A stretch of DNA of 64,000 nt from Paenibacillus sp. FSL R5-0912 (GTDB lineage Bacteria > Bacillota > Bacilli > Paenibacillales > Paenibacillaceae). Made by a program: the position numbers and the translations under genes. Positions 11,455 through 55,973 of this stretch are shown here, piece after piece (positions within the stretch are counted from its first letter, which is position 1; each line of letters opens with the position of its first letter). The notes below the pieces were generated by a model. It ran no database searches. It was not told the DNA's origin and was given only the letters and a program-made list of their open reading frames with translations. The stretch lies in contig NZ_CP009282.1 in the NCBI RefSeq assembly GCF_000758605.1, positions 2,852,001 through 2,916,000 on the forward strand, written 5' to 3'.

Positions 11455-11902
11455 GCCGCTGTACCTGGAGTATCTGATCTATTTCAACCGGGACAGGGAT
11501 TACTTCGAATGTCATGAGGTACTTGAGGAGCTATGGCTGGAACAGCAGCGCGACCCGCTCTACAAAGCATTGTTGCAGGTAGCGGTCGGACTGTATCATT
11601 TCCGTAACGCCAATGTGCGCGGCGGACGGATCATGCTGAGGCAGTCCTATGAAGTACTGCGTGGATATCCGGCGGTAACCCTCGGGATTGATCTGGCGAA
11701 GCTGGTTCAGGAAGTGGGAGATTATGCCGCCCGGCTTGAAGCTTATGTAGAGCAGCCGTTTCCCTATTATGATCTGACGATCTGTATTATTGACCCTGTG
11801 CTGGAAGAAGCGGCGCGAATGACTGCGCAGTCTCTTGAGCCGCAGGTTCCCCAGCGCCGCGGGCCGCAGCGGCCGGATAGACCCAGGCATAGAGCGGATT
11901 GA
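11444..11902 (+). CDS. DUF309 domain protein
   Basis: A 152-residue helical protein. The family signature FECHEVLEELW is at residues 21-31, followed by a second helical region (LLQVAVGLYHFRNANVRGG) typical of DUF309. The biochemical role is not established. The start ATG at 11444 lies inside the 3' end of the alarmone synthetase gene, indicating coupled expression. The stop codon lies inside a 26-bp tandem duplication. The C-terminal tail, rich in Gln, Pro and Arg, is probably unstructured. Confidence 0.8.
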   Translation: MAYEPLYLEYLIYFNRDRDYFECHEVLEELWLEQQRDPLYKALLQVAVGLYHFRNANVRGGRIMLRQSYEVLRGYPAVTLGIDLAKLVQEVGDYAARLEAYVEQPFPYYDLTICIIDPVLEEAARMTAQSLEPQVPQRRGPQRPDRPRHRAD

Positions 11903-40451: not shown

Positions 40452-41191
40452 GGAATATATTTTCCTGCCATATATTGTGTATAGGAATCTTTGATTTGCT
40501 TACTGTGAGCTCTGCTTATAGGTAATTCCTGATCGTTGCTCAGCACAACGGAATGAACAGTAAACTTTCGGATATAATCCATATTTACAATAATTGATCT
40601 ATAAATGCGCAGGAAGGGCGCGCCTAATTTCACGGAATAGGATGATATAGTTCCTGTAACAGAAAAATTTCCATCTGTAGTGATAATATTCAACTTATTC
40701 TGTGCCAAAGAATGCTTTACTTTCAAAATAGATATAACTTCTGACAATGGTATAATATTCTCTCCTTGCTCCTCTTTCAAAATGATTGAATATTTTACGG
40801 CAGAATTTAGATGGTCATAGAGCCGTCTCATTTTTGATTCAAAAGTACTATACACCAGTGGTTTTAGTAAATACTGGAATGTAAATACTTCAAAGCTTTC
40901 CATGACATATTCCGGGTAGCTGCTTAAAAATAGGATGGCGACTTCTTTATTAGGGAAGGAACGGATTTGTTTTGCCGTTTCCAGGCCGTTTATACCTGAC
41001 ATTTCAATGTCAAGAAAGAGAAAATGTAAATGAGGAGGCTTTTTGCTTTGATAATGTTCCAGCAGTTCTTCTCCTGAAGAAAAATAAGTTAAACTGAATT
41101 TACAATTAAAATCCCTCTCAAAATGTGTGAAAAACTGACTTAATTCTTCGTAAACTTCGCTTTCATCGTCACATATTCCACCGTACAGCAT
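40448..41191 (-). CDS. agrA: AgrA-like LytTR response regulator
   Basis: A 247-residue response regulator. The receiver domain has the acidic pair D8/D9 (GICDDE) and phospho-acceptor D61 in FLFLDIEMSGING. The C-terminal LytTR DNA-binding domain occupies about residues 145-245 (LRIYRSIIVNMDYIRKF; LPISRAHSKQIK). The start at 41191 is used because GGGAGAG lies upstream; an in-frame ATG at 41212 would place that ribosome site inside the gene. It is transcribed away from agrB, and the 21-bp-phased direct repeats in the divergent region are its likely target. Confidence 0.87.
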   Translation of the reverse strand: MLYGGICDDESEVYEELSQFFTHFERDFNCKFSLTYFSSGEELLEHYQSKKPPHLHFLFLDIEMSGINGLETAKQIRSFPNKEVAILFLSSYPEYVMESFEVFTFQYLLKPLVYSTFESKMRRLYDHLNSAVKYSIILKEEQGENIIPLSEVISILKVKHSLAQNKLNIITTDGNFSVTGTISSYSVKLGAPFLRIYRSIIVNMDYIRKFTVHSVVLSNDQELPISRAHSKQIKDSYTQYMAGKYIP

Positions 41192-41286
41192 TAGTTCTTC
41201 TCTCCCATTCATTCCATATATTTAAAGTATAGCAAATTTGGCCTATAGATCAACACAAGGCTAGTTCTAAAAATTAATACATAAAA

Positions 41287-41321
41287 ATGCATTTCGCATA
41301 GAATTTAATGCGGTTCGCATA
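41287..41321. promoter_or_regulatory. Phased direct repeats before agrB, candidate AgrA site
   Basis: ATGC-N2-TTCGCATA occurs at 41287-41300 and again at 41308-41321, a period of exactly 21 bases. It ends 12 bases before a -35-like TTGAAG (41334-41339). Paired direct repeats at two helical turns are the normal architecture of LytTR-regulator sites. Confidence 0.65.
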
Positions 41322-41379
41322 TAAGGTGTTCCTTTGAAGGAATAATTATCCTATATTATTTACAAGGGGATGGAAAAAA

Positions 41380-41961
41380 ATGATAGAGATGTTATTAAAT
41401 ATTGCGGGTGAGAGGATGGTCCATCATAAAGTAATCATGCAGAAGGAGCTGGCGATAATCCGTTACGGATTACAGGCCATGATCGAATCCATGCTTATTT
41501 TCAGTACGATGATAATTTTATCTGTTATTTTGGGGAGTTTTGTAGAAGCTCTAGCCTGGGTAGGGACGGTCTTCTTAATAAGAAGTATGAGGGGCGGAAG
41601 ACATGCGGGAACATTTTTACAATGCTATTTCATATCTGTAGGTACCTTTTTATTATGTATGCTAGCCATACATTTCTTTCAACATCAACTTATTCTATAC
41701 AGGATCATTTGGGGAGCCGCGTTACTGCTGATACTCTGGTCTCTAATATCTTCAATTCCAAGGTCAAAACAGAAGAAAATACAACTAATAGGTACTTTAA
41801 TTAATAGTCTTCTGATTTTCGCATATGGCTTATTAATTTTCCTGCAAAATACTAATCCATTCTTGTTGGCAAGCCTGCTGGGCTTAACGGTTTCGCAATT
41901 ATCCGGTTTTGTGGAGATCAAAGCCTGCTGCAAACAGCAAGTGGCAAATGAGCCAGGCTAA
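41380..41961 (+). CDS. agrB: AgrB-like pheromone-processing peptidase
   Basis: A 193-residue membrane cysteine protease that trims and cyclises the AgrD precursor. The catalytic pair is visible in SMRGGRHAGTFLQC: H75 and C82, with the same seven-residue spacing as in staphylococcal AgrB. Several hydrophobic helices surround it. It reads divergently from agrA/agrC across a 188-bp regulatory gap. Its substrate is not the next gene, as is usual, but probably the small peptide 1.4 kb downstream. The stretch is visibly AT-rich. Confidence 0.88.
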   Translation: MIEMLLNIAGERMVHHKVIMQKELAIIRYGLQAMIESMLIFSTMIILSVILGSFVEALAWVGTVFLIRSMRGGRHAGTFLQCYFISVGTFLLCMLAIHFFQHQLILYRIIWGAALLLILWSLISSIPRSKQKKIQLIGTLINSLLIFAYGLLIFLQNTNPFLLASLLGLTVSQLSGFVEIKACCKQQVANEPG

Positions 41962-42029
41962 TGCGTAAGATTCCGGGACGATTAATGAAAATAAAGTACA
42001 TATTGTTTATGTTTGTGAAATTAATAACG

Positions 42030-42049
42030 TTGTATAGATAACTATACAA
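42030..42049. promoter_or_regulatory. Perfect dyad before the biosynthetic operon
   Basis: TTGTATAG (42030-42037) and CTATACAA (42042-42049) are exact inverse copies around ATAA, 24 bp before the 31-codon gene. It could be an operator or overlap a -10 element. Confidence 0.55.
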
Positions 42050-42073
42050 AAATATATTATGGGAGGTTGTAAC

Positions 42074-42169
42074 ATGGATGTGTCTCGTCCGGTTTATAGT
42101 TCTGAAGAACAGCAAAGCGAGGTTCCCGGAATTCATAGTTTGCTAGAGGACAAGGAGGGGAATATATGA
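42074..42169 (+). CDS. 31-residue acidic peptide, translationally coupled
   Basis: ATG 42074 has GGGAGG upstream and ends in an ATGA overlap with the reductase gene. The peptide is acidic, with ESSEE-like and LLEDKEGN segments (MDVSRPVYSSEEQQSEVPG is the first part), and has no Cys, no signal and no hydrophobic stretch. It lies where agrD would normally be but lacks every AgrD feature. It may be a ribosome-loading leader for the reductase, a precursor peptide or a small regulator. Not recognised. Confidence 0.55.
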   Translation: MDVSRPVYSSEEQQSEVPGIHSLLEDKEGNI

Positions 42170-43332
42170 ATACTTCAGGAGATTCTATGATACCCTCTAA
42201 GCTTCAAGGCAATGTTCTCATTACCGGCGTCACAGGTTTTATTGGGAGACACGTGTTATACGAGTTTCTGAAAGTGGCTATGGAAACTTCATGGAGAAAT
42301 AAAATATATATTCTATTACGGGGAAAAAAGGGTCTCTCGGCAGCCGCAAGAGTTGAGCATTTATTGACTCATGAGTATCTTCCCGAGTATCTCAAAAAGT
42401 ATGGCTACCAGGAATTAGCGGAAAATATCACCGCCATTGATGGCAATTTAGAAGATTCTGATCTTGGGCAGCAGTTGTATTCGCTAATCCCCAGAGACGA
42501 GCAGTTGTTCGTTATACATAATGCAGGATCTGTTAATCTTTTTAATACTGCTGCGGCTGAACAAGAGGTCCATCATACTAATTGGCTGGGAACAATAAAT
42601 CTAATTCATGCCATAGAACAGTTTAACAGTAAATTGGTGTATATGAGCACTGCATTTTCGTGTGGCATTGTGGATGGAGTAATCGGAGATAACTTCACTT
42701 TTTATCAAGATAATAGTTACAGAAATCATTATGAGAAATGCAAAAATCTGACCGAAAAATTCATTCAGAGCTATTGCACCGAAAAAAATATCAAGTATCA
42801 GATTTTGAGGCCAAGCGTGGTCTGCGGAAGACTTATTGATGCACCGCTGTATTACATCTCCAAGTTTGATGTGTTTTACGGCTGGACAAAGTTCTTTTGG
42901 AATTTACAAAATCAGGGTAGCACAGAAAGTGTAAGAATTCACATTTCCCCCGACTCAAAGGTCAACATAGTGCCTGTGGATTTTGTAGCCAAATCAGTTC
43001 TGGCATTTTTTCAGCAGGATATCCCTTACGTTAATATTGTTTATCCAGAATCTATTAATAACCGCTATTTGCATAGCTCATTGCTGCGCTCTTTACACTT
43101 TAATCACTATGAGTTCATTGACGAGGCCCCGACTAACCTGAACAAGAGTGAGAAGCTATATTACAGGTCTATTAACAAGGTGTACACTCCTTACTTAAAT
43201 CAGTGCAGTAATGAATATGACAGCCAACTAATAGGCAGTATTATGGGCAGTAAGTTTATGCCGAAAATTGATTTGCATTCATTGGCTGATTTTTCAATTT
43301 GTAATCATTTTGATGAAGAACTAGTCAACTAA
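42166..43332 (+). CDS. Thioester-reductase-like NAD(P)-dependent enzyme
   Basis: A 388-residue extended SDR of the NAD-binding-4 group (terminal reductase domains of NRPS, fatty acyl-CoA reductases). The cofactor loop is TGVTGFIG (about residues 21-28), the catalytic serine segment is YMSTAFSCG, and the YxxxK pair is in HYEKCKN. These enzymes release or reduce carrier-bound acyl chains to aldehydes or alcohols. As a separate protein in this cluster it may act on the acyl chain or on the released ketide. GGAGGGG precedes ATG 42166. AT-rich like agrB. Confidence 0.78.
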   Translation: MNTSGDSMIPSKLQGNVLITGVTGFIGRHVLYEFLKVAMETSWRNKIYILLRGKKGLSAAARVEHLLTHEYLPEYLKKYGYQELAENITAIDGNLEDSDLGQQLYSLIPRDEQLFVIHNAGSVNLFNTAAAEQEVHHTNWLGTINLIHAIEQFNSKLVYMSTAFSCGIVDGVIGDNFTFYQDNSYRNHYEKCKNLTEKFIQSYCTEKNIKYQILRPSVVCGRLIDAPLYYISKFDVFYGWTKFFWNLQNQGSTESVRIHISPDSKVNIVPVDFVAKSVLAFFQQDIPYVNIVYPESINNRYLHSSLLRSLHFNHYEFIDEAPTNLNKSEKLYYRSINKVYTPYLNQCSNEYDSQLIGSIMGSKFMPKIDLHSLADFSICNHFDEELVN

Positions 43333-43389
43333 AATAATGTGAGAACCCGCGTTACCAAAATCAAGCAATCTTAGGGAGAGAACCTGATC

Positions 43390-43539
43390 ATGAATTTAGC
43401 CCAAATGAAAAGAATTCCTTGGAAAGTAATCAGTGTATTGGCTGTTGCTTTTGTCGTGCTGAGAGTGAATACGTTATGCTGGTGGATTGCACATGAGCCA
43501 GAAATGCCGGAGGAGATTAAAGAAAAATATTACAATTAG
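43390..43539 (+). CDS. agrD: AgrD-like cyclic-lactone autoinducer precursor
   Basis: A 49-residue peptide; GGGAGAG precedes ATG 43390. It has the three-part AgrD layout: an amphipathic/hydrophobic leader (about residues 1-25), a core around NTLCWWIA with single Cys C30, and an acidic tail HEPEMPEEIKEKYYN. By analogy with staphylococcal AgrD, the thiolactone ring would join C30 to residue 34 (CWWIA). It lies between the reductase and exporter genes, away from agrB, inside what looks like the biosynthetic operon. The family call is strong; the exact mature peptide is inference. Confidence 0.85.
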   Translation: MNLAQMKRIPWKVISVLAVAFVVLRVNTLCWWIAHEPEMPEEIKEKYYN

Positions 43540-43573
43540 TCAATTATAAAAATCTGGGAGTGGAGATCGGATA

Positions 43574-45262
43574 ATGATAAACGGGACAAAAAACAAATTA
43601 GCATTTGTGGCAGTTATTTTTGGTTTTTTCATGGCATTACTGGATACGACGATCATTAACATCACCCTTCCCGAGATGATGAGTTACTACAATACTACGC
43701 TGAAAAACATAACTTGGGTAATCAACGGGTATAATTTGGCATTTGCTGTTTTTATCATTACAGCTTCAAGATTGGCCGACCAGTTTGGCCGTAAGAGGAT
43801 ATTTGGGATCGGTATCTTTTTCTTTACACTGATGTCATTTCTATGTGCTATCTCATCATCCTCTGAGATGCTTATCTTGTTTCGCGTGCTTCAAGGCTTA
43901 TTCGGCGGAATTATTCTGCCGGTATCCATACCGCTTGCACTGGACTTGGCTCCGGAAGACAAGCAGGGGAAGGTGCTGGGCATTTGGTCCGTAGTATCGG
44001 GGCTGGCAGCAGCCAGCGGACCGACGCTTGGAGGATTCTTATCCGATCAGTTCAACTGGCAGTCGATATTCTTGATCAACGTACCAATCGGCATTGTCGC
44101 TCTCTTCTTAGTGATCTTTTGCATCAAAGAATCCTATGATCCTACTGCGGGCAAACAACTCGACTTTCTGGGGATGTCTGCATTGTCCGTCTCGCTGTTC
44201 TCTATCACCTATGCGCTTATTCAGGCCAACGACGAAGGTTGGACATCTCCGCTTATCTTGAGCTTGTTTTTAGCCTTTTTGATCTTTATGGCTTTATTTG
44301 TCTGGGTTGAGCTTACAACAAAGAAGCCAATGATCCCCCTGTCACTCCTCAGGAATGTCACCTTTAACGCCGCCTCCTTAACGCTGCTTATATTAGGCGC
44401 GGGCATCATGACAATATCGCTGCTTATTTCTTTTTTCATGACTCGGTTGATGGGGCTCAGCGAGCTTGAGGCTGGTGTGACTCTATCTGTTATGCCGTTG
44501 GCCTCGGCCCTCTTCTCGGTAATTACCAGTCTGCTGCTCAAAAGGGTAGGGGAACGCTGGCTTATCATTGCCGGCATGGCTTGCATCGCACTGTCGATGT
44601 TCCTTATGAATGACCTGACTGCAGGGTCTGACCGGCTTGATGTAATATACAGACTGGCTATCGCAGGTGCGGGTATGGGGTTTGCGCTGGCGCCTACAAT
44701 GAATTCGGCCATCGGCAATGTCCCTAAAGATAAGGTTGGTATTACGTCGGGAATTATGAATATGACGCGCTCTATCGGGGCAGTGCTTGGTGTAGCTATC
44801 ATTGTCACTATTTTGAATACGACGACTGGTAGTGAAATTGCGGCTGCAAAGTCCGATATTATCGACATTATCCATTCGGATAAAGTCTTCAGCGCCGCCG
44901 CTCAAGAGGAATTGATTAGTGCTGTGAATGAGATCGAGGTATCCAGCAGTAGCGAAGTTCCCCAGATGGAGAGCGTTATCGGCTTGATGCAGGAGAGAGG
45001 GGCCAAATTGCTGGCTGGTGTGGCTCCGGACAAATTGGAGATGACCAAAGCCGTTCTTCAGGCTCAGCAAGACGAGGTGAAGAAACTGTGGCCTGAGCGA
45101 ATTCAGCCTGAGCTATATTCCGGATTGGTCTCTTCGTTCAGTGATACATTCAAATACGGCAGTGCCTGTCTGCTGCTGGGCATCTTATTTTCCTTCTTCA
45201 TAGGAACGGGGCAAAGGCAGGAACAGGGGACCGAAATAGCAATGGACAATACAGAAATGTGA
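43574..45262 (+). CDS. MFS multidrug exporter, DHA2 (14-helix) type
   Basis: A 562-residue drug:proton antiporter. Motif A is RLADQFGRKRIFGIG, motif C lies in GIWSVVSGLAAASGPTLGGF, and motif D1-like LLDTTIINITLPEM is at the N-terminus. The length and about 14 helices fit the EmrB/QacA group. A soluble loop of about 100 residues (about 430-525) precedes the last helix. It is placed between the pheromone gene and the assembly-line genes, with only 20 bp to the next gene. Export of, or self-resistance to, the cluster product is the likely role. Confidence 0.88.
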   Translation: MINGTKNKLAFVAVIFGFFMALLDTTIINITLPEMMSYYNTTLKNITWVINGYNLAFAVFIITASRLADQFGRKRIFGIGIFFFTLMSFLCAISSSSEMLILFRVLQGLFGGIILPVSIPLALDLAPEDKQGKVLGIWSVVSGLAAASGPTLGGFLSDQFNWQSIFLINVPIGIVALFLVIFCIKESYDPTAGKQLDFLGMSALSVSLFSITYALIQANDEGWTSPLILSLFLAFLIFMALFVWVELTTKKPMIPLSLLRNVTFNAASLTLLILGAGIMTISLLISFFMTRLMGLSELEAGVTLSVMPLASALFSVITSLLLKRVGERWLIIAGMACIALSMFLMNDLTAGSDRLDVIYRLAIAGAGMGFALAPTMNSAIGNVPKDKVGITSGIMNMTRSIGAVLGVAIIVTILNTTTGSEIAAAKSDIIDIIHSDKVFSAAAQEELISAVNEIEVSSSSEVPQMESVIGLMQERGAKLLAGVAPDKLEMTKAVLQAQQDEVKKLWPERIQPELYSGLVSSFSDTFKYGSACLLLGILFSFFIGTGQRQEQGTEIAMDNTEM

Positions 45263-45281
45263 TAAAAGGTGGGAGAAGCCA

Positions 45282-47342
45282 ATGAACAGTATCTTTGAGA
45301 TGATAAGGCAGTCAGCGTCAAGATGGCCGGATAAAGAGATATTGATAGAACTTCCTATGGACGAAACAGGGGAACGTGGAATTACTTATTCCGGATTGAT
45401 TACGCGAGCCGAAGGCGTTGCTGCGCTTCTTCGCAAGCAGGGATGCCAGCCGAAGAGCAGAGTACTTCTCCTATTCAACTCGAACATTGAATTTACGGTT
45501 GCATTTCTTGGCTGCATTTTCGGAGGAGTTATAGCGGTTCCCATGTATTTGACCAAAGGCGCGTCGTTTGTGGAGGAACTCAAGGCTTTCTCCGCGGATT
45601 GTCTGACAAACCTTCTGTTGACCACATCCGAGATGCAGCCCATGCTCCAGGCGCGCTTGCCGGGTTATAGCATATATACGACTGACGGTCTGTCAGAAGA
45701 GGCTGAGTACATACCAGCCGATCTATCCCCTCTCTCCGAGGCATTCATTCTGTATACATCCGGTTCTACTGGCAGGCCTAAGGGAGTCGTTCATACACAT
45801 CAAAGCTTCAGCAGTCATGTGATGTCCGTTCAGGACCGTCTCCGGCTGCAGGATACAGACAGTTCAGTGTGTGTCAGCCCGTTGCAGCATATTATGGGGA
45901 TGCTGAATGTATTCATTTCATTAACTTTTGGTCTTCAGGTTGTTTTTCTGCCCATGCTCCGAGTCTTACAATCGCCTCTTGAATGGGTAACGGAGCTATC
46001 CCGGCGCAGAGCGACCATATTTCTTGGTCCTGATTTTGTATACAAATTGGCGGCTGGCGCTTATACGCAGGAACAGGCGGAAGGATTAGATTTGAGCCAT
46101 CTACGAATTTCTCTCAGCGGCTCGGAGCGGGTTCTTCCCTCCACAGTGGATAGCTTCACCCGCATTTTCAGCAGGCATGGCTTTGCGGCTACTAGTCTGA
46201 TCATAGGATACGGAATGACCGAGGCGGGCATTATCTCAATCAGCGCATTGAATGAACAGCCGATTGGGCTTGAATCACTTCCAGGTATATATAGTTGTGG
46301 TCAGGTCGTTGCAGGGTATCATGCCGTAATTGTGGACAGCAGCAGCGGGCGGGAGTGTGGATCGGGCGAGACCGGCGAGGTATGGGTGAAGGGACCCGGA
46401 CTGGCGGATAGATACTGGAACAATTCTGATCAAACAAAGCTGGATTTCGGTTTGTATTTGCCCGAAGGAGAGGGGCCATTCTTCAGGACAGGGGACTTGG
46501 CCTGCAAGATCGACGGCAATCTCTTTCTGACCGGAAGACTGAAGGAAATAATAATCATCAAAGGGCAGAATTTCTACCCGGATGATATTGAGGCGGGGGT
46601 TCGCCGCCAGGCAACGGCAATAGGGCAGTGTGCGGCTTTTTCGGTTGATGCTAGTGAGGGTGAACGCCTGATTGTAATAGTGGAAACCGCACTACAGGAC
46701 AAGGGGGAGTTATCCCGGCTGTCCGAACGGACAGTCGCGGATATTCAAGTACGCAACGGAATTCGGATTGCGGAGCTGCTCTATGTATCTCCTCAATCGC
46801 TTCCGCTTACCCGCACCGGCAAGCTCCAAAGAAGTCAATGCAGAGTGCTCTATGTTGAAAAAAAACTAAACCCTGTATACATCTATGAGCATCTGACCGA
46901 CATGACGGGGGAGAGTAAATCCCGCTCCCCATTTACAACCGGTTTGACGAATGAGCTAACAGTGAATGAGCTCCGGAATACTGTACTTGCTGATTTGACT
47001 GCAGCTTTCAAGAGGTTACTTCCCGGTGAGACTGAATCGATCGACATCGGAATGCCGATCCATCTGCTCGGTACCGATTCCATTACAGCCATTGAGTTAC
47101 ATCACCTGGTCGAGGAGAAATATGGGGTACAGCTTCCGATCACCTATTATCTGGAGGGCAATACTATAGAGACTATTGCCGGCAGAATAATCGAAGAGAG
47201 CAGGGCATCTGCCGTTATGGAGGCAAGCCCGACGATAGAAGAACTGGATCAGGACACGATGGACATGGAGACGGTTTACAACCGTCTGGACAGTTATTCA
47301 GAGGAAGAGCTTAACCGGATTCTTGATGCCTTGCAGCGGTAA
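45282..47342 (+). CDS. Acyl-AMP ligase fused to a carrier domain
   Basis: A 686-residue loading protein. The AMP-binding domain has YTSGSTGRPKG at residues 158-168, followed by GYGMTEAG and TGRLKEIIIIKGQNFYPDDIE, wording typical of fatty acyl-AMP ligases. The C-terminal carrier domain (about 560-640) has LLGTDSITAIEL with S600 for phosphopantetheine. It should activate a fatty acid as acyl-AMP and load it on its own carrier. The last about 30 residues are acidic and may dock to the NRPS. The start ATG follows a GGTGGGAG site. No phosphopantetheinyl transferase lies in the window. Confidence 0.85.
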   Translation: MNSIFEMIRQSASRWPDKEILIELPMDETGERGITYSGLITRAEGVAALLRKQGCQPKSRVLLLFNSNIEFTVAFLGCIFGGVIAVPMYLTKGASFVEELKAFSADCLTNLLLTTSEMQPMLQARLPGYSIYTTDGLSEEAEYIPADLSPLSEAFILYTSGSTGRPKGVVHTHQSFSSHVMSVQDRLRLQDTDSSVCVSPLQHIMGMLNVFISLTFGLQVVFLPMLRVLQSPLEWVTELSRRRATIFLGPDFVYKLAAGAYTQEQAEGLDLSHLRISLSGSERVLPSTVDSFTRIFSRHGFAATSLIIGYGMTEAGIISISALNEQPIGLESLPGIYSCGQVVAGYHAVIVDSSSGRECGSGETGEVWVKGPGLADRYWNNSDQTKLDFGLYLPEGEGPFFRTGDLACKIDGNLFLTGRLKEIIIIKGQNFYPDDIEAGVRRQATAIGQCAAFSVDASEGERLIVIVETALQDKGELSRLSERTVADIQVRNGIRIAELLYVSPQSLPLTRTGKLQRSQCRVLYVEKKLNPVYIYEHLTDMTGESKSRSPFTTGLTNELTVNELRNTVLADLTAAFKRLLPGETESIDIGMPIHLLGTDSITAIELHHLVEEKYGVQLPITYYLEGNTIETIAGRIIEESRASAVMEASPTIEELDQDTMDMETVYNRLDSYSEEELNRILDALQR

Positions 47343-47367
47343 TCTATGGCACATTAAGGAGGAAGAA

Positions 47368-50300
47368 ATGGAACAGACCCTCGAAAGAACACAGAAACTC
47401 CAGCTTGCTGAAGCTATATTGAGAGATAAACTGGGTCTAACCGGAGACTCTATTCCTGTCTCCAAAGGGCAGGAAGGATTGTTTTTACAATATCGCCTCT
47501 CTCCAGACTCTTGTGCGTACCACTTAAACTTTTGTTCACTGATTGATAATCAGATCCGGATCGACCTTTTGCGGGAATCTTTCCGCATTTTGCGGGACAA
47601 GCACCCTATCTTACGCACCGGATATCGAGAGAATACCGGAGGCCCCTACAAAGTTGTCCAGCAGGTGATGAACGGGGAAGAATTCTGGATGGTGCATGAG
47701 GTATTTGATCTGGAGGAAGAAACGATTGACCAACTGGTTCACGAGCGATCCAAACATCCCTTTGATTTGGAGAACGGCAAAGTAATGAGAGTTGATTTTT
47801 TTGAAAAGGCGGAGGGACAGGGCAGGCTGCTGGTATCCATACACCACATAGCGATGGATTATTGGAGCCAGGGTGTTTTGTTGAACGAGCTCGGGTTGAT
47901 CTTTACAAGTCTGGTTGAGCATGGAAAGGCAGCTCCAGGCACTTCCGGCGTGTTGTACAGTGAGTTTGCCAAATGGCAAGGGAGATTGCTAGCATCCAAG
48001 GAAGGCCGCCATTCCTTGGATTACTGGAAAGAAACATTGAACGGTTTACTGCCCTGCATGGATCTTCCAACGGACTATCCAAGAGGAGATCATACAGATT
48101 ACAGAGGCCAATCCTGCTCCTTCGAGCTGAGTCCAAAGATGGTAGATGGAATCAGAAGACTAGCGGGGGCGCATGAAGCTACAGTTTATGTAATTATGCT
48201 TGCTTTCTATTACATGCTTCTCCAGAAATATTCGGGGCAAAAGGATATCATCATCGGATCGCCGACAACCGGCAGAAGCAGTGCCAGGTTCAAAGATACG
48301 ATAGGGTATTTAGTCAATATGCTTCCGCTCCGGATTGACGCTGACAGCAGCCTCTCTTTTCCGGAATTGGTTGCTTATGTGAAGCAAGTTTCTATGGAGG
48401 GTCTGACCCATGGAGATATTCCCTTCTTTAATATTGTCCGGGAGCTGCAGGGTCAACGTAACGGCAACCGGACGCCTGTCTTCCAGGTTTCCTTGACGTA
48501 CGAGAAGCCGACATCCTCGAACCGGTCGGGGCGCTTTCTTTATGCGGAAGAGAGACCGAGTATTCAATTAGGGAGTCTAGTCCTGCATCCCGTTCCTGTG
48601 CCAGTACAAGCTTCCCAGTATGAGCTTTCCCTGTACCTGGAGGAAGTCGAAGGCTCGCTGTCAGGGCAGTTTCACTACCAGTCTGCATTGTTCAAGGAAG
48701 AGACCGTTCAGCGCATGGCTCTTCATTATGTTCAGCTCATCTCGGAGGTGCTGGATAAACCGGAACTGGAGATAGGTGCCTATCCCATAATTACTAAGGA
48801 AGAACGGGAGAAAATCCTGAACGTCTGGAACTATCCTGCCGCGAAGTCTACGGAAGAAGAAACATTGCATAGCCGGATTCACAAGATGGCGGAGCAATTT
48901 CCGGCAAGAACAGCGGTAGTGTGCGGGCAGGAGGAGATTACCTACAGTGAGTTAAATCTGAAATCTTCCATTCTGGCTGCTTGTTTACAGGCGAAGGGTG
49001 TCGGACCCGAAGTGAAGGTGCCCTTGATGGTGCAGCCCTCGCTCGATATGATCGTGGCCATTCTGGCTGTTCTTAAAGCAGGAGGGACTTACGTCCCCAT
49101 TCATCATCAAGCCCCTCCGGAACGGATTGCCGAGATCATACAGGATATTCAACCTGTTGTTATGATCACCGAGCGGGGGTTAGCTACCCATATTCTAGCT
49201 GGCGAGACGGACATATTGTATGCAGATGGAGATTGGAATGTGCCGGAACCGGCGGAGATGCCAGAGTCTAACCATGATGTAACTGCTGATAACACTGCTT
49301 ATATTATTTATACGTCCGGCTCGACCGGAAAGCCGAAGGGCGTTATGGTCAGCCACCGGAATGCCGTCCGCTTGTTTACTTCAACCCAACAGAGGTACAA
49401 CTTTGACGAACGGGATACTTGGACACTCTTCCATTCATTCAGCTTTGACTTCTCGGTTTGGGAAATTTTCGGGGCTTTATTGTACGGAGGCAAGCTTGTT
49501 GTTGTTCCTTACTACGTCACCAGAGAGCCCCATGCTTTTTACAGACTGTTGAGCTCGGAAGGCGTTACGGTGCTGAATCAGACCCCGTCTGCATTCAAGC
49601 AGCTGATGAATGTGGACCAGAGCCTGCATCAAGAATTTCCATTGGCATTGAGGTATGTCATTTTTGGAGGAGAAGCGCTTGATCTCCAGAGTCTGAGACC
49701 TTGGTTTGAGCGTCATGGGGACAAAGAACCAGCATTGGTCAACATGTACGGAATTACCGAAACCACAGTCCATGTTACGTACAGACCCGTCGTTATGGCT
49801 GATACCGAATTCGCCACCGGAAGTTATATAGGAGAACCAATTCCCGATTTGCAGATTTATCTGCTTGATGATTATCGGAATTTGGTTCCGCCTGGTGTTC
49901 ACGGGGAAATCTATGTCGGAGGCGCAGGGGTATCCAAGGGATACTTCAATCGCCCTGAACTGACCGCGGAGAGATTTATTAATGATTTCATAGGCGGGAT
50001 ATCTGGCAATCGCCTGTATCGTTCAGGTGATATGGGAAGATATCTGCCGAACGGAGATATCGAATATTTGGGAAGACAGGACTCACAGGTCAAAATTAGA
50101 GGCTTCCGGATTGAACTCGGGGAAATCCGGTCCAGAATCCTCGCTTTTAACGGAATCAAGGATGCTGTAATTCTGGTAGACGGCAGCCGCGATGAAGACA
50201 AAAAAATTGTGGCTTATGTGATTTGGCAGGGTCAAGAGCTATTGGATTCCGGGACGCTTCGGAAGTTTCTGAAGGGCAAATTGCCAGATTATATGATTCC

Positions 50301-50736
50301 ATCCGCTTTTCTAGCTGTTGAAGAGATTCCACTGAACGCAAATGGAAAAATAGACCGCACGGCCCTTCCACCCGTTGTCTACGGGATCTTGGAGTCAAAC
50401 AGTACTGCTGTCCCTGAGACCGAGCTGCAACGGAAGCTTGCCTGCTTGTGGGAAGAAGTTCTGTCATTGGATCAGGTGGGAATAGACCAGGCGTTTTTTG
50501 ATATGGGCGGGAATTCTATTCTTGTAGTGGAATTGCATAATCGCATTAAAGATCAATTATGTGCAGATATCAGCATAGCAGACCTCTTCCAATATTCTAC
50601 CGTAGCGGAGCAGGCTGGGCATATCGAGAGCATGCAGTCAAGGCACAAGGATGACCAGACGTTGCACTCGACTGCTGGCATAATTGACAAACAGCAGTTA
50701 AGAAAACATGCGATGAATCGGAGAACCAAACCGTAG
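47368..50736 (+). CDS. NRPS module C-A-T, predicted to load threonine
   Basis: A 1122-residue single module. The condensation domain (about 30-450) has the active HHxxxD motif, HHIAMDYWS, at 159-167. The adenylation domain (about 475-1000) has YTSGSTGKPKG at 648-658. The ten pocket residues read D694, F695, W698, N737, I765, G767, M793, V801, H802 and K994, which is DFWNIGMVHK, the known threonine code. The carrier domain has DMGGNSIL with S1050. No epimerase or TE domain. The start ATG 47368 follows AAGGAGG. It sits after the acyl ligase and before the PKS, so the C domain should N-acylate threonine with the loaded fatty acid. Confidence 0.9.
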   Translation: MEQTLERTQKLQLAEAILRDKLGLTGDSIPVSKGQEGLFLQYRLSPDSCAYHLNFCSLIDNQIRIDLLRESFRILRDKHPILRTGYRENTGGPYKVVQQVMNGEEFWMVHEVFDLEEETIDQLVHERSKHPFDLENGKVMRVDFFEKAEGQGRLLVSIHHIAMDYWSQGVLLNELGLIFTSLVEHGKAAPGTSGVLYSEFAKWQGRLLASKEGRHSLDYWKETLNGLLPCMDLPTDYPRGDHTDYRGQSCSFELSPKMVDGIRRLAGAHEATVYVIMLAFYYMLLQKYSGQKDIIIGSPTTGRSSARFKDTIGYLVNMLPLRIDADSSLSFPELVAYVKQVSMEGLTHGDIPFFNIVRELQGQRNGNRTPVFQVSLTYEKPTSSNRSGRFLYAEERPSIQLGSLVLHPVPVPVQASQYELSLYLEEVEGSLSGQFHYQSALFKEETVQRMALHYVQLISEVLDKPELEIGAYPIITKEEREKILNVWNYPAAKSTEEETLHSRIHKMAEQFPARTAVVCGQEEITYSELNLKSSILAACLQAKGVGPEVKVPLMVQPSLDMIVAILAVLKAGGTYVPIHHQAPPERIAEIIQDIQPVVMITERGLATHILAGETDILYADGDWNVPEPAEMPESNHDVTADNTAYIIYTSGSTGKPKGVMVSHRNAVRLFTSTQQRYNFDERDTWTLFHSFSFDFSVWEIFGALLYGGKLVVVPYYVTREPHAFYRLLSSEGVTVLNQTPSAFKQLMNVDQSLHQEFPLALRYVIFGGEALDLQSLRPWFERHGDKEPALVNMYGITETTVHVTYRPVVMADTEFATGSYIGEPIPDLQIYLLDDYRNLVPPGVHGEIYVGGAGVSKGYFNRPELTAERFINDFIGGISGNRLYRSGDMGRYLPNGDIEYLGRQDSQVKIRGFRIELGEIRSRILAFNGIKDAVILVDGSRDEDKKIVAYVIWQGQELLDSGTLRKFLKGKLPDYMIPSAFLAVEEIPLNANGKIDRTALPPVVYGILESNSTAVPETELQRKLACLWEEVLSLDQVGIDQAFFDMGGNSILVVELHNRIKDQLCADISIADLFQYSTVAEQAGHIESMQSRHKDDQTLHSTAGIIDKQQLRKHAMNRRTKP

Positions 50737-50754
50737 AGGGGAGTGTTACTAACT

Positions 50755-53700
50755 TTGGATAAGGATACGAGCTACGATATTGCGATTATAGGAATGTCCT
50801 GCCGGGTACCCGATGCGGGGAATTTGGATGAATTCTGGGACAACCTGAAGCAAGGCAGAGAAAGCATACAGTTCTTCTCCACCGAGGAAATGGCCCGGGA
50901 GGGGGAAGTATCATTTACTAAAAGCAACTATGTAAATGCTGGCGGAATTCTGGAGGAGATTGAGGAATTCGACAACACCTTTTTTGACATGTCCTCATCG
51001 GAGGCCGACATTTCAGACCCTCAGCACCTTATATTCCTGGAAGCTGTCTGGAATGCCCTTGAGGACTCCGGGAATATCCCGGGGAGGTATCCGGGGATCA
51101 TCGGGATGTTCGGGAGCTCCAGCACTAATACATACTTGTACCGCAACCTGCTGCCGAATCGCGATCTTATGGATACGCTGGGTATTCACCCGTTGCTGAT
51201 TGGGAACGAAAAGGACTTTCTTTCCACTCGGGTATCATACAAGCTGGGCTTAACGGGCCCCAGCATGACTGTTCAGACTGCATGCTCAAGTTCTTTGGTT
51301 GCTGTGCATATGGCAATTCAAAGCTTGCTGAATGGAGAATGTACTATGGCGGCGGCTGGCGGCGTTACGGTCAGATCGTCACAACGGGTAGGGTATGAGT
51401 TCAGCGAAGGCGGAATTTTGTCACCCGATGGGATATGCCGGGCATTTGATGAAAATGCGAACGGCACGGTAACTGGAAACGGAGTCGGGGTTGTGATTCT
51501 GAAGCGCTATGAGGATGCAGTCCGAGAAGGGGATTCTATCTATGCCGTTATCAAATCCAGCGCGGTGAGAAACGATGGATTACATAAAGTCGGGTTTACA
51601 GCTCCGGGAGTTGAGGGCCAAATCCAGACGATCCGGGATGCGATTAATTTATCCGGTGTCCGTCCAGAGGATATCAGCTATGTGGAAGCTCATGGAACTG
51701 GCACACGGCTTGGAGACCCGGTGGAACTGTCTGCTCTTTGTCAGGTGTATGCAGAATATACTGATCGAAAAGCCTTTTGCGCTTTGGGGTCCGTCAAATC
51801 TTCAATAGGACACCTGGACGTGGCTGCAGGCGTTGTCGGCTTAATTAAAGTGGCTATGATGCTGCGTAACAGGAAAATGGTGCCGACCGTAAATTTTTTA
51901 TCCCCTAATCTGGAATTAAACCTGGAGAAAAGCCCGTTCTATATTAACACGGAGTGTGAGGAATGGGAGAGCGAGGGAAACCGGTTTGCGGGCGTCAGTT
52001 CCTTCGGACTCGGGGGGACTAACTGCCATATCATTCTGGAGGAGTATGTGCCGGAGCGTATGAAGGGAAAGGAGCGGCCGCTGTATCTGGTGCCGTTGTC
52101 GGCCAAAACAGAAACCTCATTGATCAGCTACACGGACAAACTGCTAAACCAGCTGAAAAAAAACGGCTATCCATTGGCTGATGTTGCGTATACACTTGCC
52201 ACTGGACGAAAGCTCTTTAAATACCGCCGGGCAATTGTCTGCGGAAATTTGGAGGAGCTGAAGACTAAGCTCGGCTCTACTACGGAGATAAAGAAGTCCC
52301 CATCCCGGACACATCCTTTGACGTTGCTTGTTTCCGATATGGAAGCTGGGATGTTGGACAAGCTGTATTCTCAACTATCTGCTTGCGGAGGTTCCTTTGC
52401 CAGCAGCCAGTTGGCCAGCTCGGAAATTCTGAGCAGGCATGGGCTGACTTGCAGCGACTTGCTGGATTGCGCCGCTGGAAGGATCTGCACGGAGCGGCCA
52501 GCCTGGCTAACCAAACAGGCTGCCGGGAGAACGGCCTCTTATATCTGCAACCTGTCGCTTCTCTCTGGAATTATTACCGAGTTTGGATTGATGCCGAATA
52601 CTTACGCTTACACAGGCGATGGACACTATGCGATCAAGGTACTACTTGGCCAGATCAGAGTGGAGGATGTGCTGGACATCCTGCTGGAGGACCCGGCATC
52701 ATCCGGACGCGGCACAGACGCTGATATTAAATCCACAGCTGAGTTATATGACGGCAACCGTAGAGCTGGACATCTCTTCCATATCGGCTGTATGGAGTTA
52801 AATAAGGAAGCCGCAGATCAGGTGCATCAGATCGCCGGAATCCAGGAGGATGTGTCGGAGTATTCGCTGTTCCAAAGCATCATGGAGACGGTTGGAGCGT
52901 TATGGTGCAGCGGTATAGCTATAGATTGGGAGAAGTATTATGAAGGACTTGAGGCTAAAAGAGTGTCCCTAGCCACATACAGCTTCGAACGGACGCGTCA
53001 CTGGATCGAAGCCAAGCCACAAACCGAGCCTCAAACCGAGCCTGGTATCACAGTATCTAATGAGGCAGGCGGCAGATCGCCGGAGGAGGTCACCTCCAGA
53101 CTTGTGGAAATTTGGCGCCGGCATCTCCCTGTGGAACAAATAAATATGGATACTGACTTTTTTATGGCCGGTGGGGATTCATTCCGGGCTATTCAGATTC
53201 AATCTCAAATAAGTCAGGAATTCGGAGTTCAGCTGTCATTGTCCAGATTCATAGCAGAGCCTACTCTTGGAACTCAGGTCCAACAATTGCTGTCCAAGCT
53301 TGGAGGAGAGGAAGTTCACCATGCGAGAACCGATGAGCCGGATGAGCGTGTGGTGAGGCTTAGAAGTGGTGATGATGCCCAGTCTCCGGTCTTTCTGATC
53401 CATCCTGCGGGAGGAACGGTGATGGTGTACAAGGCGCTGGTTCAGGAATTAAACTGCAACCGTAATATATTCGCGATCCAGGTGGGGATGCCCGCAGAGC
53501 GGGCGGGTGAGAAGAAGGAATGCATTGAGGAGACAGCGGCCGAATATATTAAGTTAATTAAGCGCCTATACCCTCAGGGGCCGTATCTTCTAGGGGGGCA
53601 CTCTTACGGAGGGAATGTTGCCTTTGAAATGTCGCTTCAATTGCAGCGGACCGGGGATTTGGTAGCGGAGCTGCTGTTGTTCGACAGCCATCCGCCTAAA

Positions 53701-54195
53701 GCTTATTTTAATAACAAGGTCATGACCGATGAGAAATTCCTCGAGGCATTCCCTATTATTGCTTCCTTGTACTTTCCAAACGATAACATTCGAGAGGATG
53801 CGGGGGCTCCGTCTGTTCGCGTAATCACGCAGCCCCGGGAGGATATTGCGGGTATTGTCGGCTATTTGAAGAAATATTCAACTCAGTTGAGCCTGCTGCC
53901 CGATGAGGAGATCATGCATTTCTTCCAGGTATGGGTCAGTAACCACAACGCATTGAGAACTCATAATCCGCTGGAAATGTATAACGGGCGGCTGCATTTC
54001 TTCCAGGCACAGCAGCCTCAGCCCAGAGAAATACTTGAGATATTGAACATTAATTTACAACACGGAATGGATCTGGCCGAATGGGGAAGACTGTCTGCAG
54101 ATTTCTGCGTATACCCCATTCCCGGCACGCATTATTCAATGCTGAACGAGCCTAATGTCCGAATCATGGCAAGAAGTTTAGAGGGGATTGTGTAA
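50755..54195 (+). CDS. Polyketide synthase KS - inactive AT - ACP - TE
   Basis: A 1146-residue module. The ketosynthase (about 5-430) has the complete triad: C177 in QTACSSS, H313 in EAHGTGT and H353 in SIGHLD. The next about 330 residues keep the outline of an acyltransferase (LLSGIITEFGLMPNTYAYTG), but where GHSxGE belongs they read TGDGHY, with D622 in place of serine. The ACP has GGDSFRAIQ with S809. The terminal thioesterase has GGHSYGG with S950, D977 and H1126. No ketoreductase is present. The TTG at 50755 is preferred because GAGGGGAG lies 12 bases upstream; GTG 50743 directly follows that site and is the alternative. Confidence 0.87.
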   Translation: MDKDTSYDIAIIGMSCRVPDAGNLDEFWDNLKQGRESIQFFSTEEMAREGEVSFTKSNYVNAGGILEEIEEFDNTFFDMSSSEADISDPQHLIFLEAVWNALEDSGNIPGRYPGIIGMFGSSSTNTYLYRNLLPNRDLMDTLGIHPLLIGNEKDFLSTRVSYKLGLTGPSMTVQTACSSSLVAVHMAIQSLLNGECTMAAAGGVTVRSSQRVGYEFSEGGILSPDGICRAFDENANGTVTGNGVGVVILKRYEDAVREGDSIYAVIKSSAVRNDGLHKVGFTAPGVEGQIQTIRDAINLSGVRPEDISYVEAHGTGTRLGDPVELSALCQVYAEYTDRKAFCALGSVKSSIGHLDVAAGVVGLIKVAMMLRNRKMVPTVNFLSPNLELNLEKSPFYINTECEEWESEGNRFAGVSSFGLGGTNCHIILEEYVPERMKGKERPLYLVPLSAKTETSLISYTDKLLNQLKKNGYPLADVAYTLATGRKLFKYRRAIVCGNLEELKTKLGSTTEIKKSPSRTHPLTLLVSDMEAGMLDKLYSQLSACGGSFASSQLASSEILSRHGLTCSDLLDCAAGRICTERPAWLTKQAAGRTASYICNLSLLSGIITEFGLMPNTYAYTGDGHYAIKVLLGQIRVEDVLDILLEDPASSGRGTDADIKSTAELYDGNRRAGHLFHIGCMELNKEAADQVHQIAGIQEDVSEYSLFQSIMETVGALWCSGIAIDWEKYYEGLEAKRVSLATYSFERTRHWIEAKPQTEPQTEPGITVSNEAGGRSPEEVTSRLVEIWRRHLPVEQINMDTDFFMAGGDSFRAIQIQSQISQEFGVQLSLSRFIAEPTLGTQVQQLLSKLGGEEVHHARTDEPDERVVRLRSGDDAQSPVFLIHPAGGTVMVYKALVQELNCNRNIFAIQVGMPAERAGEKKECIEETAAEYIKLIKRLYPQGPYLLGGHSYGGNVAFEMSLQLQRTGDLVAELLLFDSHPPKAYFNNKVMTDEKFLEAFPIIASLYFPNDNIREDAGAPSVRVITQPREDIAGIVGYLKKYSTQLSLLPDEEIMHFFQVWVSNHNALRTHNPLEMYNGRLHFFQAQQPQPREILEILNINLQHGMDLAEWGRLSADFCVYPIPGTHYSMLNEPNVRIMARSLEGIV

Positions 54196-54225
54196 GAGTA
54201 TATTGTTTGCAAAGGTGGCTTAGCG

Positions 54226-55446
54226 ATGAACAAGCTTGCACTTCTGTTTCCAGGGCAAGGTTCACAGTACATTGGGATGGGAAAAGAATGGATCGGCACT
54301 TGCCGGGAAGCTGCTACAGTCTATGAAGAAGCCAGTGACTGGTCTGGAGTAGACGTGAAAAAATTATGCACGGAAGAAACGGCTGCACTGGACGGCAGCC
54401 GCAACACCCAGCTTGCAGTACTGGCGAACAGTGTTGCCATGTTCAAAGTCTACGAGGAGAGGGTAGGGATTCAACCGGCCATTTCTGCCGGACACAGTCT
54501 GGGAGAGTATTCCGCTTTGACCTGCGCGGGTGCACTCGAATTCTCTGATGCAGTCAGGCTGATTGCCAGACGAGGGCAATTTATGGAGGAAGCCTGCGCA
54601 GAGGTGGAGGGAGGAATGGCTGCCGTCACAGGCGTTAGTCCTCTTATGGTTGAAGAGTTATGCGCCTTGGTTTCCGAGCCCGGTCAATTCGTTCAACCGT
54701 CTAACTACAATACCGATCAGCAAACTGTAATCTCGGGGCATAAGAAGAAGCTGGAGGAGGCTTTAGACGTTCTGGACAGACGTGGAATCCACTATAAGCG
54801 GCTCCCGGTAAGCTTGCCCGCTCACAGCCGGATATTGCTGCCAGCCAGAGACCGACTGGCGGAAGAGATGCGCTCTCTTACTATCCGCATGCCCAAGTGG
54901 GAGGTTGTTTCCAACCTCAAGGCGAGTCCTTATTGCTCGGTGGAAGAAATCAGACATTCCTTACCTGATCAGATTGTATCCCCAGTTTTATGGTCCAGCA
55001 CCATGCGGTTCCTGCAAAGCAGCGGAATTACGGTTGCCGTTGAAATTGGGCCAAAGACGGTTCTGCGTAATTTGCTTCGTCAATCGGCACCCGGTATCAG
55101 AAGCTTAGCTTTCGATGTAGCGGAGGATCGCAAGCTGCTGCTCCAATATATGAGCAGTGAATTGTACCGGCAGAACGATGCTCATTTTATTTCACTTTGT
55201 ATGGGGATCGCTGTATCTGTGAGGAACAGAAATTACAATCAGGAGGAATATGAAGAAGGTGTGATAATACCATATAGAGAAATGAGTAAGATGAAAAGGA
55301 CGTATGAAGCACGCGGTTATTCACCGGACGTTGCGGACAGAGATAAGGTCTTGGAATATCTGGTCCAGATTCTTGAGACGAAGAAGTATCCCCACGAGCA
55401 AATCCGGCGGAGGATTGGGACCTTGACCGCAGAAAGGAGAATGTAA
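54226..55446 (+). CDS. Stand-alone acyltransferase (malonyl-type, trans-acting)
   Basis: A 406-residue FabD-like protein. PGQGSQYIGMG opens it, the active serine S91 is in AGHSLGEYS, the arginine is in IARRGQFME, and H200 is in VSLPAHSR, which fits malonyl rather than methylmalonyl selection. FabD proteins end near residue 310; here about 95 more residues (from LYRQNDAHFISLCMGIA) form an additional helical, charged domain of unknown role. It should load the ACP of the preceding PKS, whose own AT segment lacks the serine. It is 30 bp after the PKS and overlaps the next gene by one base. Confidence 0.85.
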   Translation: MNKLALLFPGQGSQYIGMGKEWIGTCREAATVYEEASDWSGVDVKKLCTEETAALDGSRNTQLAVLANSVAMFKVYEERVGIQPAISAGHSLGEYSALTCAGALEFSDAVRLIARRGQFMEEACAEVEGGMAAVTGVSPLMVEELCALVSEPGQFVQPSNYNTDQQTVISGHKKKLEEALDVLDRRGIHYKRLPVSLPAHSRILLPARDRLAEEMRSLTIRMPKWEVVSNLKASPYCSVEEIRHSLPDQIVSPVLWSSTMRFLQSSGITVAVEIGPKTVLRNLLRQSAPGIRSLAFDVAEDRKLLLQYMSSELYRQNDAHFISLCMGIAVSVRNRNYNQEEYEEGVIIPYREMSKMKRTYEARGYSPDVADRDKVLEYLVQILETKKYPHEQIRRRIGTLTAERRM

Positions 55447-55973
55447 TGAACCAGCTGATTAGTGACACCGCTATTTTATGGCTGCTCCCGATCATATTTA
55501 TGATTCATGATTTTGAAGAGATCATTCCTACTCCCGGATGGGTTCAGAGAAACAAGGAGCAGATATACAATAAGATTCCCGGCTTCGCCAAATCCAGAGT
55601 GGAAAAAATGTCCTCCCTTACGGGGTCTCAATTCTCAGCGGCGGTGGGAGTGCTGTTTGTCCTATTTTCGGCCGCAGCATTCCTAGCTTATGAGTATCAT
55701 TTTTATCTTCTTTACATGGTGCTGAGCCTTGGATTGTTCCTGCACTCCTTCTTTCACATAGGGGTATCGCTGTTTTTGAGGAGATGGACGCCGGGCGTTG
55801 CAACAAGCGTGCTTCTACTTCTTCCATACGGTGTTCTAAGTATTGATTACTTCATTCGCAATGATCTGTTTGTGTTCCCGGATATTTTGTATTTCAGCCT
55901 GATTGTAATCCTCTTATTTATGCCATTTCTTCAATTTCTTCATTTCATTGGAAGAAAGCTGGCGAGATCATAA
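55446..55973 (+). CDS. HXXEE-domain membrane protein
   Basis: A 175-residue protein with about five hydrophobic helices. The name-giving motif HDFEE lies at residues 21-25 (MIHDFEEIIPTPGW), and a second histidine cluster is in LHSFFHIGV. This matches the HXXEE family of small membrane proteins of unknown function, thought to bind metal. The start overlaps the acyltransferase stop (TAATG), so it is the last gene of the cluster. Immunity, export help or tailoring are all possible; none is shown by the sequence. Confidence 0.75.
   Translation: MNQLISDTAILWLLPIIFMIHDFEEIIPTPGWVQRNKEQIYNKIPGFAKSRVEKMSSLTGSQFSAAVGVLFVLFSAAAFLAYEYHFYLLYMVLSLGLFLHSFFHIGVSLFLRRWTPGVATSVLLLLPYGVLSIDYFIRNDLFVFPDILYFSLIVILLFMPFLQFLHFIGRKLARS

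Follow-up and report, generated by a model that had tools for sequence, protein, structure and literature searches.

The staphylococcal agr system (AgrBDCA) has four parts, with a five-residue cysteine ring ahead of an acidic tail and a LytTR regulator with spaced repeats. Elsewhere, clostridial agrBD-agrCA loci have been described in which lanthipeptide clusters lie very close to or adjoin the agr genes (PMC10301443), and a genome-mining study counts AgrB-bearing "cyclic lactone autoinducer" clusters among the biosynthetic clusters of a Paenibacillus, its account of them making no tie between agr and a nonribosomal peptide synthetase-polyketide synthase (NRPS-PKS) pathway (PMC10938842). Adjacency of agr to natural-product genes is therefore not new as such. 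Here we describe a gene unit at positions 39180-55973 of a 64,000-nucleotide stretch, hereafter the window, of Paenibacillus sp. FSL R5-0912 (contig NZ_CP009282.1, positions 2,852,001 to 2,916,000; the genome is a single contig of 7.72 Mb), which combines a complete agr set with an NRPS-PKS assembly line and is likely a variant of the acyl-aminoacyl-malonate (tetramate) line under agr control.

Like the staphylococcal system, the locus has all four parts, a predicted five-residue cysteine ring with an acidic tail, a LytTR regulator and spaced repeats. It differs in that agrCA is divergent from agrB, that agrB and agrD are separated by a hydrolase remnant and a reductase gene, and that the predicted target is a biosynthetic run that itself holds agrB and agrD. 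The clostridial loci likewise have agr beside natural-product genes, whereas here agrB and agrD lie within the NRPS-PKS run.

With respect to chemistry, the nearest published counterpart in layout is the enzyme pair MucD/MucE, whose cluster is deposited as MK144293 and which serves as a precedent for lactam closure by a ketosynthase-acyl carrier protein-thioesterase (KS-ACP-TE) protein working with a trans-acting acyltransferase (trans-AT) (PMC10161427; PMC6694145). In vitro, MucE with a trans-AT converted the N-acetylcysteamine thioester (SNAC) N-decenoyl-D-leucine-SNAC and malonate to a pyrrolidine-2,4-dione via the amide nitrogen (PMC10161427). The muc and rtc lines share with the present locus a condensation-adenylation-peptidyl carrier (C-A-PCP) NRPS followed by a KS-ACP-TE PKS without a working AT, a fatty acyl start unit, the use of one amino acid and one malonate, and a trans-acting malonyl transferase. 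They use leucine, whereas a threonine code and no leucine-specific A domain is found here, and this locus differs further in its own fatty acyl-AMP ligase (FAAL)-carrier, its own AT gene, its predicted agr control and its extra reductase and HXXEE genes. No MucABC-type acetylation genes were recognised among the 18 genes scanned with Pfam (36589-63427). An uncharacterised pair in Lucifera butyrica shares the threonine code, the two-gene C-A-T and KS-x-ACP-TE core (T and PCP both denoting the peptidyl carrier) and a PKS lacking GHSxG; it differs in that no FAAL gene, agr or reductase was recognised by BLAST within 17.7 kb, and downstream of it lie a hydrolase, an FMN-reductase-like protein and a 119-aa open reading frame (ORF) taken by eye for a phosphopantetheinyl transferase (PPTase).

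The unit occupies two divergent strands, with agrCA on the minus strand and, on the plus strand, a run from agrB through a remnant ORF, an NAD_binding_4 reductase, agrD, a DHA2 exporter, FAAL-carrier, C-A-PCP, KS-(AT remnant)-ACP-TE and malonyl transferase genes to a final HXXEE gene. The gap 3' of agrB is 112 bp, and from the remnant ORF to HXXEE the distances range from -4 to 57 bp; the AraC-type regulator, kinase and ABC transport genes that follow HXXEE after a 328-bp interval are not counted as part of the unit. ORF layout, Pfam and NCBIfam agree with the gene identities, order, strand and small gaps given in the original prediction. That prediction named only AgrD of the agr genes, overlooking agrB, the minus-strand agrCA pair and the direct repeat, and its start at 42074 was rejected in favour of the agrC end at 39180 as the real start of the unit. 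The features are as follows:

39180..40451, minus strand: AgrC-like sensor histidine kinase, 423 aa (Pfam HATPase_c_5/GHKL 63 bits; 92-93% identity to P. tianjinensis and P. ihuae)
40448..41212, minus strand: AgrA-like response regulator with receiver and LytTR domains, 254 aa (Pfam Response_reg and LytTR)
41286..41324, plus strand: direct repeat in the agrA/agrB divergent promoter (exact core TTCGCATA-N13-TTCGCATA, 21-bp period)
41380..41961, plus strand: AgrB peptidase, 193 aa (Pfam AgrB PF04647 68.6 bits, cut-off 23)
42074..42169, plus strand: remnant ORF of 31 codons, 3' end of an alpha/beta-hydrolase gene (alignments to hydrolase; 4-bp overlap with the reductase start)
42166..43332, plus strand: stand-alone NAD_binding_4 reductase, a thioester-reductase-like short-chain dehydrogenase/reductase, 388 aa (Pfam; motifs GVTGFIGRH and YEKCK, the latter YxxxK)
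43390..43539, plus strand: AgrD precursor, predicted ring CWWIA followed by the tail HEPEMPEEIKEKYYN (read from sequence; core common to eight loci)
43574..45262, plus strand: DHA2/EmrB-type major facilitator superfamily (MFS) exporter (TIGR00711 316 bits, cut-off 230.2)
45282..47342, plus strand: fatty acyl-AMP ligase with C-terminal carrier domain (Pfam AMP-binding, AMP-dom_DIP2-like, PP-binding)
47368..50736, plus strand: NRPS C-A-PCP with threonine A-domain code and C motif HHIAMDY (Pfam; code placed by eye)
50743..54195, plus strand: PKS KS-(AT remnant)-ACP-TE (Pfam; KS Cys-His-His, ACP Ser and TE Ser-Asp-His present)
54226..55446, plus strand: stand-alone malonyl transferase, predicted trans-AT (GHSLGEYSAL intact; TIGR00128 fabD 257.9 bits, just below the cut-off of 260.9)
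55446..55973, plus strand: HXXEE-family membrane protein, final gene (Pfam HXXEE 89.7 bits, cut-off 25; 1-bp overlap with the AT stop; 95-96% identity in two relatives)

The gene run is real and conserved. The whole unit is present in identical order in P. tianjinensis and P. ihuae, with 78-96% protein identity (agrB being lowest), and in each of the three genomes in which the cluster was found, agrD sits between the reductase and the exporter. The ratio of nonsynonymous to synonymous substitution rates (dN/dS) against P. tianjinensis was 0.08-0.26 across the 11 genes compared, including values of 0.11 for both the reductase, which is under purifying selection, and HXXEE; the comparison with P. 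ihuae covered 10 of the 11, agrD not being picked up by the choice of ORFs and the KS gene being split. Because order is kept in two other species at these dN/dS values, the run is more than chance. The split KS gene of P. ihuae (L011, L019) consists of two overlapping frames and was recorded as partial; the other cluster genes there are whole or nearly so. A reductase query matched 6 of 100 genus genomes, counting the source genome, and at E 1e-180 the PKS was found only in the source genome, P. tianjinensis and P. ihuae among 394 family genomes; Paenibacillus sp. FSL R7-0179 carries a PKS of 95% identity.

The agr set is complete, with AgrB, AgrD, AgrC and a LytTR AgrA. Read from sequence and conserved in the relatives, AgrD has a leader, a cysteine ring and an acidic, proline-containing tail. 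The agrA/agrB divergent promoter contains a direct repeat that is likely a LytTR-type AgrA site. This repeat is exact in the agrA/agrB spacers of four genomes, namely the source, P. tianjinensis, P. ihuae and a fourth (G015) in which a different operon lies behind it, and it occurs exactly once in the whole source genome. Searching that genome for a further regulon with up to two mismatches gave only noise (10 sites, compared to 14 for a reversed control). Counting against the predicted site, each of the four spacer repeats taken singly is moderately unusual, with 8-22 of 200 mononucleotide shuffles having an equal 9-mer repeat, and the weight of the promoter repeat therefore rests on its conservation. 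In P. curdlanolyticus (G297) the spacer has a 21-bp repeat with core TTCGCA (3 of 200 shuffles as good), and at two further loci (L268 and L272) there is a strong 21-bp repeat of other sequence (0 and 1 of 200 shuffles) but no recognised biosynthetic neighbour. For the remaining loci tested, including L204 and L210-L212 described below, the best repeat was equalled by 23-189 of 200 shuffles, which does not extend the site to the wider family.

The domains of the assembly line point to a defined chain. FAAL models lead among the 25 NCBIfam matches listed for the acyl-AMP ligase, all under their curated cut-offs. The A-domain signature D-F-W-N-I-G-M-V-H-K, its ten positions placed by eye from the core motifs, is named in the section of a 2025 survey on threonine-activating domains. 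A C domain with the motif HHIAMDY is present, a candidate for the starter type that would take a fatty acyl group. In the PKS, the position of GHSxG reads TGDGHY, and GHSxG is absent in 14 of 14 aligned sequences (the window's PKS and 13 of 120 listed matches covering at least 98% of it), whereas the KS, ACP and TE residues are present in all 14, in keeping with the dead AT originally proposed. An AlphaFold model of the PKS was weak (predicted local distance difference test 61.8, predicted template modelling score 0.38); a Foldseek search with this low-confidence model placed ClbI at ranks 1-5 and ClbC at rank 10, in agreement only on a KS-AT layout of the middle region. These colibactin proteins, which belong to another pathway, share the order of a KS followed by an AT-like region, and ClbC has an inactive AT served by a trans-AT. 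The predicted trans-AT here carries a C-terminal extension of about 100-120 aa. Domains, threonine code, KS, ACP and TE residues, trans-AT motif and conservation together support the originally predicted chain of N-fatty-acyl-threonine extended by one malonate with a free beta-keto group. Elsewhere, two loci in Paenibacillus and Bacillus (L020, L021) have a C-A-T and KS-x-ACP-TE pair with another A-domain code, neighboured by genes for an MFS protein and for a protein resembling an FAD-binding monooxygenase, and three other Bacilli genomes (L127-L129) have a three-gene cluster that resembles FAAL, KS-AT and TE by BLAST.

The 31-codon ORF had been read as a peptide gene, a reading rejected here in favour of the decayed 3' end of an alpha/beta-hydrolase gene. 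In three family genomes (G092, G077 and G297), reductase relatives of 70%, 54% and 50% identity lie directly 3' of such a gene, identified by a Pfam run on the G092 copy. The 31 codons align to the hydrolase C-terminus with pieces missing (0 of 1000 shuffles reach the score), and the DNA matches over 43 bp at 81% (E 1e-8) and over 46 bp at 78%, the latter extending into the reductase start. P. tianjinensis and P. ihuae retain a different part of the same C-terminus, i.e. a different deletion (0 of 1000 shuffles each), and separate decay of one hydrolase gene is the simplest reading. Through its 4-bp overlap the remnant ORF may still bring ribosomes to the reductase start. At two agr loci of the genus (L213 and L204) agrB and agrD are adjacent and overlapping, and the reductase with its hydrolase scar was therefore probably inserted between them later, a transplant from another operon type that parted agrB from agrD.

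In G092, G077 and G297 that operon type holds a B12-type radical SAM protein, a 312-314-aa tryptophanyl-tRNA synthetase (TrpRS)-like protein, a tRNA_edit protein (its gene apart from the operon in G297), a three-gene ABC transporter, the hydrolase and the reductase; no NRPS, PKS or carrier gene was recognised in these stretches. Opposite the G297 operon lies a divergent gene pair whose products share 40% identity with AgrA and 34% with AgrC of the window. The operon is conserved in the three family genomes (L172 6028-13737; L174 2064-9808; L167 5922-13193; tRNA_edit apart in L167/L173). A more distant reductase group (41-42%) comprises four loci in three genomes (G278, G363, G367) without a recognisable hydrolase, and a truncated reductase copy in P. 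sophorae (L014 13879-14673) lies amid what by eye are transposase-like pieces, near an NRPS gene. The name thioester reductase holds only loosely: the protein reaches 111 bits against the broader PF07993 (cut-off 20.1), whereas against the curated thioester-reductase model TIGR01746 it reaches 55.5 bits, far below the cut-off of 213.35. With no carrier genes recognised near its relatives, the name needs care.

The recurrence of this AgrD type is the most interesting part of the case. An AgrA query of 100 genus genomes gave 56 matches in 40 genomes. Among the neighbourhoods of the best 28 of the 56, 14 face genes judged biosynthetic (by Pfam on one member per kind and BLAST to that member), two more (L266 and L267) may belong with them, as each encodes a protein resembling the radical SAM protein of L259 (32% and 26% identity), and the remaining 12 have other or unclear genes opposite. 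The 14 include this cluster (the window, L010 and L011). L213, in G015, faces a NusG-like protein, an acyltransferase and, by eye, a MATE pump and a methyltransferase. L204, in G076, faces PPTase, TE, FAAL, AT and KS-ACP-C genes and then three proteins (2796, 3348 and 1273 aa) that resemble NRPSs at 29-33%; together with L282 and L283 it outlines another FAAL/trans-AT PKS-NRPS cluster headed by agr, about 20 kb or longer, with AgrD ring CWWIA. In L210-L212 and L256-L258, AgrCA is divergent from a PqqD-like protein (by eye), a SPASM radical SAM protein and two ABC proteins, AgrBD being present in the former three and not seen in the latter. L259, L260 and L263 have an AgrCA-like pair facing ABC, radical SAM and S8 protease genes, an operon of peptide-maturation type. 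As side observations, a 75-codon Cys-rich ORF 3' of the L258 radical SAM gene (11308-11535 of the turned stretch) resembles a modified-peptide precursor, and L259, L260 and L263 each hold by eye a small acyl-carrier-like protein, which had no Pfam match in L259.

The AgrD core CWWIAHEP was found behind divergent AgrCA at eight loci in eight genomes (the window, L010, L011, L204 and L210-L213), the residues just before the ring varying (NTL, NLL, NTM, NIT, NTT). All eight head operons judged biosynthetic, of four kinds. The core appeared in 5 of 52 AgrB stretches and 0 of 21 AgrA stretches; 32 of the 52 span only about 3 kb, one stretch is the window's own agrB and ends before agrD, and the AgrB sample is not random, the 20 matches taken with longer surroundings (at most 20 kb) being chosen by match end in the profile and, for one, by a nearby KS. 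The eight are not independent events, since L210-L212 nearly duplicate one another and so do L010 and L011, and independent joinings number at most four or five. An AgrD query of 108 family genomes gave, besides its own genome, one weak match (G276, ring CWWFG), and no biosynthetic genes were seen at that AgrB-AgrD-LytTR locus.

We give about even chances to the complete reading, in which the unit is an agr-autoinduced biosynthetic operon whose fatty acyl-threonine-malonate product would be released as a tetramic acid. That the agr genes are mere neighbours and do not control the pathway is favoured by the frequency of agrB in the genus (85 of 100 genomes); the place of agrD within the run in three genomes, the conserved promoter repeat and the biosynthetic operons behind all eight CWWIAHEP-type agrD genes make this very improbable, and the agr linkage originally noted stands. 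For release, N-acyl-5-(1-hydroxyethyl)tetramic acid is ranked as the most likely product, above a six-membered lactone, because MucD/MucE closes a lactam. Several points weigh against this ranking. The likeness of the TE to that of lactam-forming MucE and of RtcK is one of layout, and sequence kinship is presumptive. In the reported assays MucE accepted only the D-substrate (PMC10161427). An epimerase domain is absent from the present assembly line, as it is from tri-domain MucD, which is nonetheless believed to epimerise. Retention of the threonine code in the Lucifera butyrica pair, compared with leucine in the Muc line, hints that the threonine hydroxyl may matter. Searches aimed at MucE/RtcK gave little. 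A tblastn search of plasmids returned no record in which a single place covered 80% of the query; a PKS-profile search of 398 class genomes gave frames of about MucE length, of which the five examined (1046-1060 aa; G606, G621, G637, G653 and G411) all lie in other clusters; and of the loci with PF01796 (57 of the 398 genomes), the 30 scanned had no NRPS C-A neighbour such as a muc cluster should show, only weak resemblance of some adenylate-forming enzymes.

The originally proposed lactone, in which the TE would let the threonine hydroxyl close 5-acylamino-6-methyl-dihydropyran-2,4-dione on an unchanged assembly line, is retained as a rival that we consider unlikely. Geometry permits the ring, and the full threonine code in the Lucifera butyrica pair (C-A-T 44%, KS-TE 39% identity) suggests that threonine has long been retained; on the other side, the sole characterised enzyme found of this layout, MucE, makes a five-membered lactam and so an N-acyl tetramic acid, and no characterised lactone-forming relative was found. 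Tetramate and lactone are isomers of one formula, a C6H9NO3 core plus the acyl group (C16H27NO4 with decanoyl), and mass by liquid chromatography-mass spectrometry cannot separate them. Rather less probable still is another exit, in which the chain would be hydrolysed and lose CO2 to leave an acylamino ketone, or would be reduced to an aldehyde by the stand-alone reductase. That enzyme keeps its cofactor and YxxxK motifs, and its dN/dS against P. tianjinensis is below that of the other four catalytic genes (FAAL, NRPS, PKS, AT), yet its relatives stand in operons without a recognised carrier protein, so a role on this line does not follow, and the TE triad is present.

Under the preferred tetramate reading, AgrB would cut and cyclise AgrD to a thiolactone with the ring Cys-Trp-Trp-Ile-Ala, which would activate AgrC at high cell density; AgrA would then bind the 21-bp-spaced direct repeat and turn on the divergent operon, which, holding agrB, agrD and the pathway together, would give positive feedback. 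The ligase would load a fatty acid onto its own carrier, the C domain would join the fatty acyl group to threonine on the NRPS carrier, and the KS would extend the chain by one malonate that the trans-AT provides. The TE would release the chain, most likely as an N-fatty-acyl-5-(1-hydroxyethyl)pyrrolidine-2,4-dione through lactam formation as in MucE, for export by the DHA2 pump. In the weakest step of the scheme, the reductase would probably act on an acyl thioester bound to a carrier or to CoA, reducing it in a tailoring reaction or as a side exit. Pumps of the EmrB/DHA2 type would suit an amphiphilic weak acid. Our guess is that the product serves as a reutericyclin-like amphiphilic acid against neighbouring Gram-positive bacteria.

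The original prediction knew of no described cluster with this gene set. Among the matches listed in the open-access literature there was no Paenibacillus agr-linked NRPS-PKS, no agrBD within an NRPS-PKS run and no ring shared across operon kinds; the two-enzyme core, on the other hand, has a precedent in MucD/MucE. The chemistry is thus less exotic than had been claimed, and the regulation more interesting. Tentatively, and with less confidence than the reading of the unit itself, we propose that Paenibacillus share a portable quorum-sensing cassette of divergent AgrCA and AgrBD with the ring CWWIA, joined to at least four unrelated natural-product operons (judged to be the acyl-threonine NRPS-PKS, a FAAL/PKS/NRPS lipopeptide line, an acyltransferase/NusG-like operon and a radical-SAM peptide operon), so that the signal of one species may trigger or silence production in another.

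If the reading of the unit is correct, agr, best known for staphylococcal virulence, would work as a dedicated switch inside antibiotic-like operons, and a small N-acyl threonine tetramate, perhaps an antibiotic built from a fatty acid and threonine, would be expected from an assembly line that brings its own AT and loading ligase. One synthetic thiolactone peptide would then be a handle to switch on silent clusters in several Paenibacillus, and, should the cassette be shared as proposed, these species would have nearly one peptide dialect with which to time different antibiotics.

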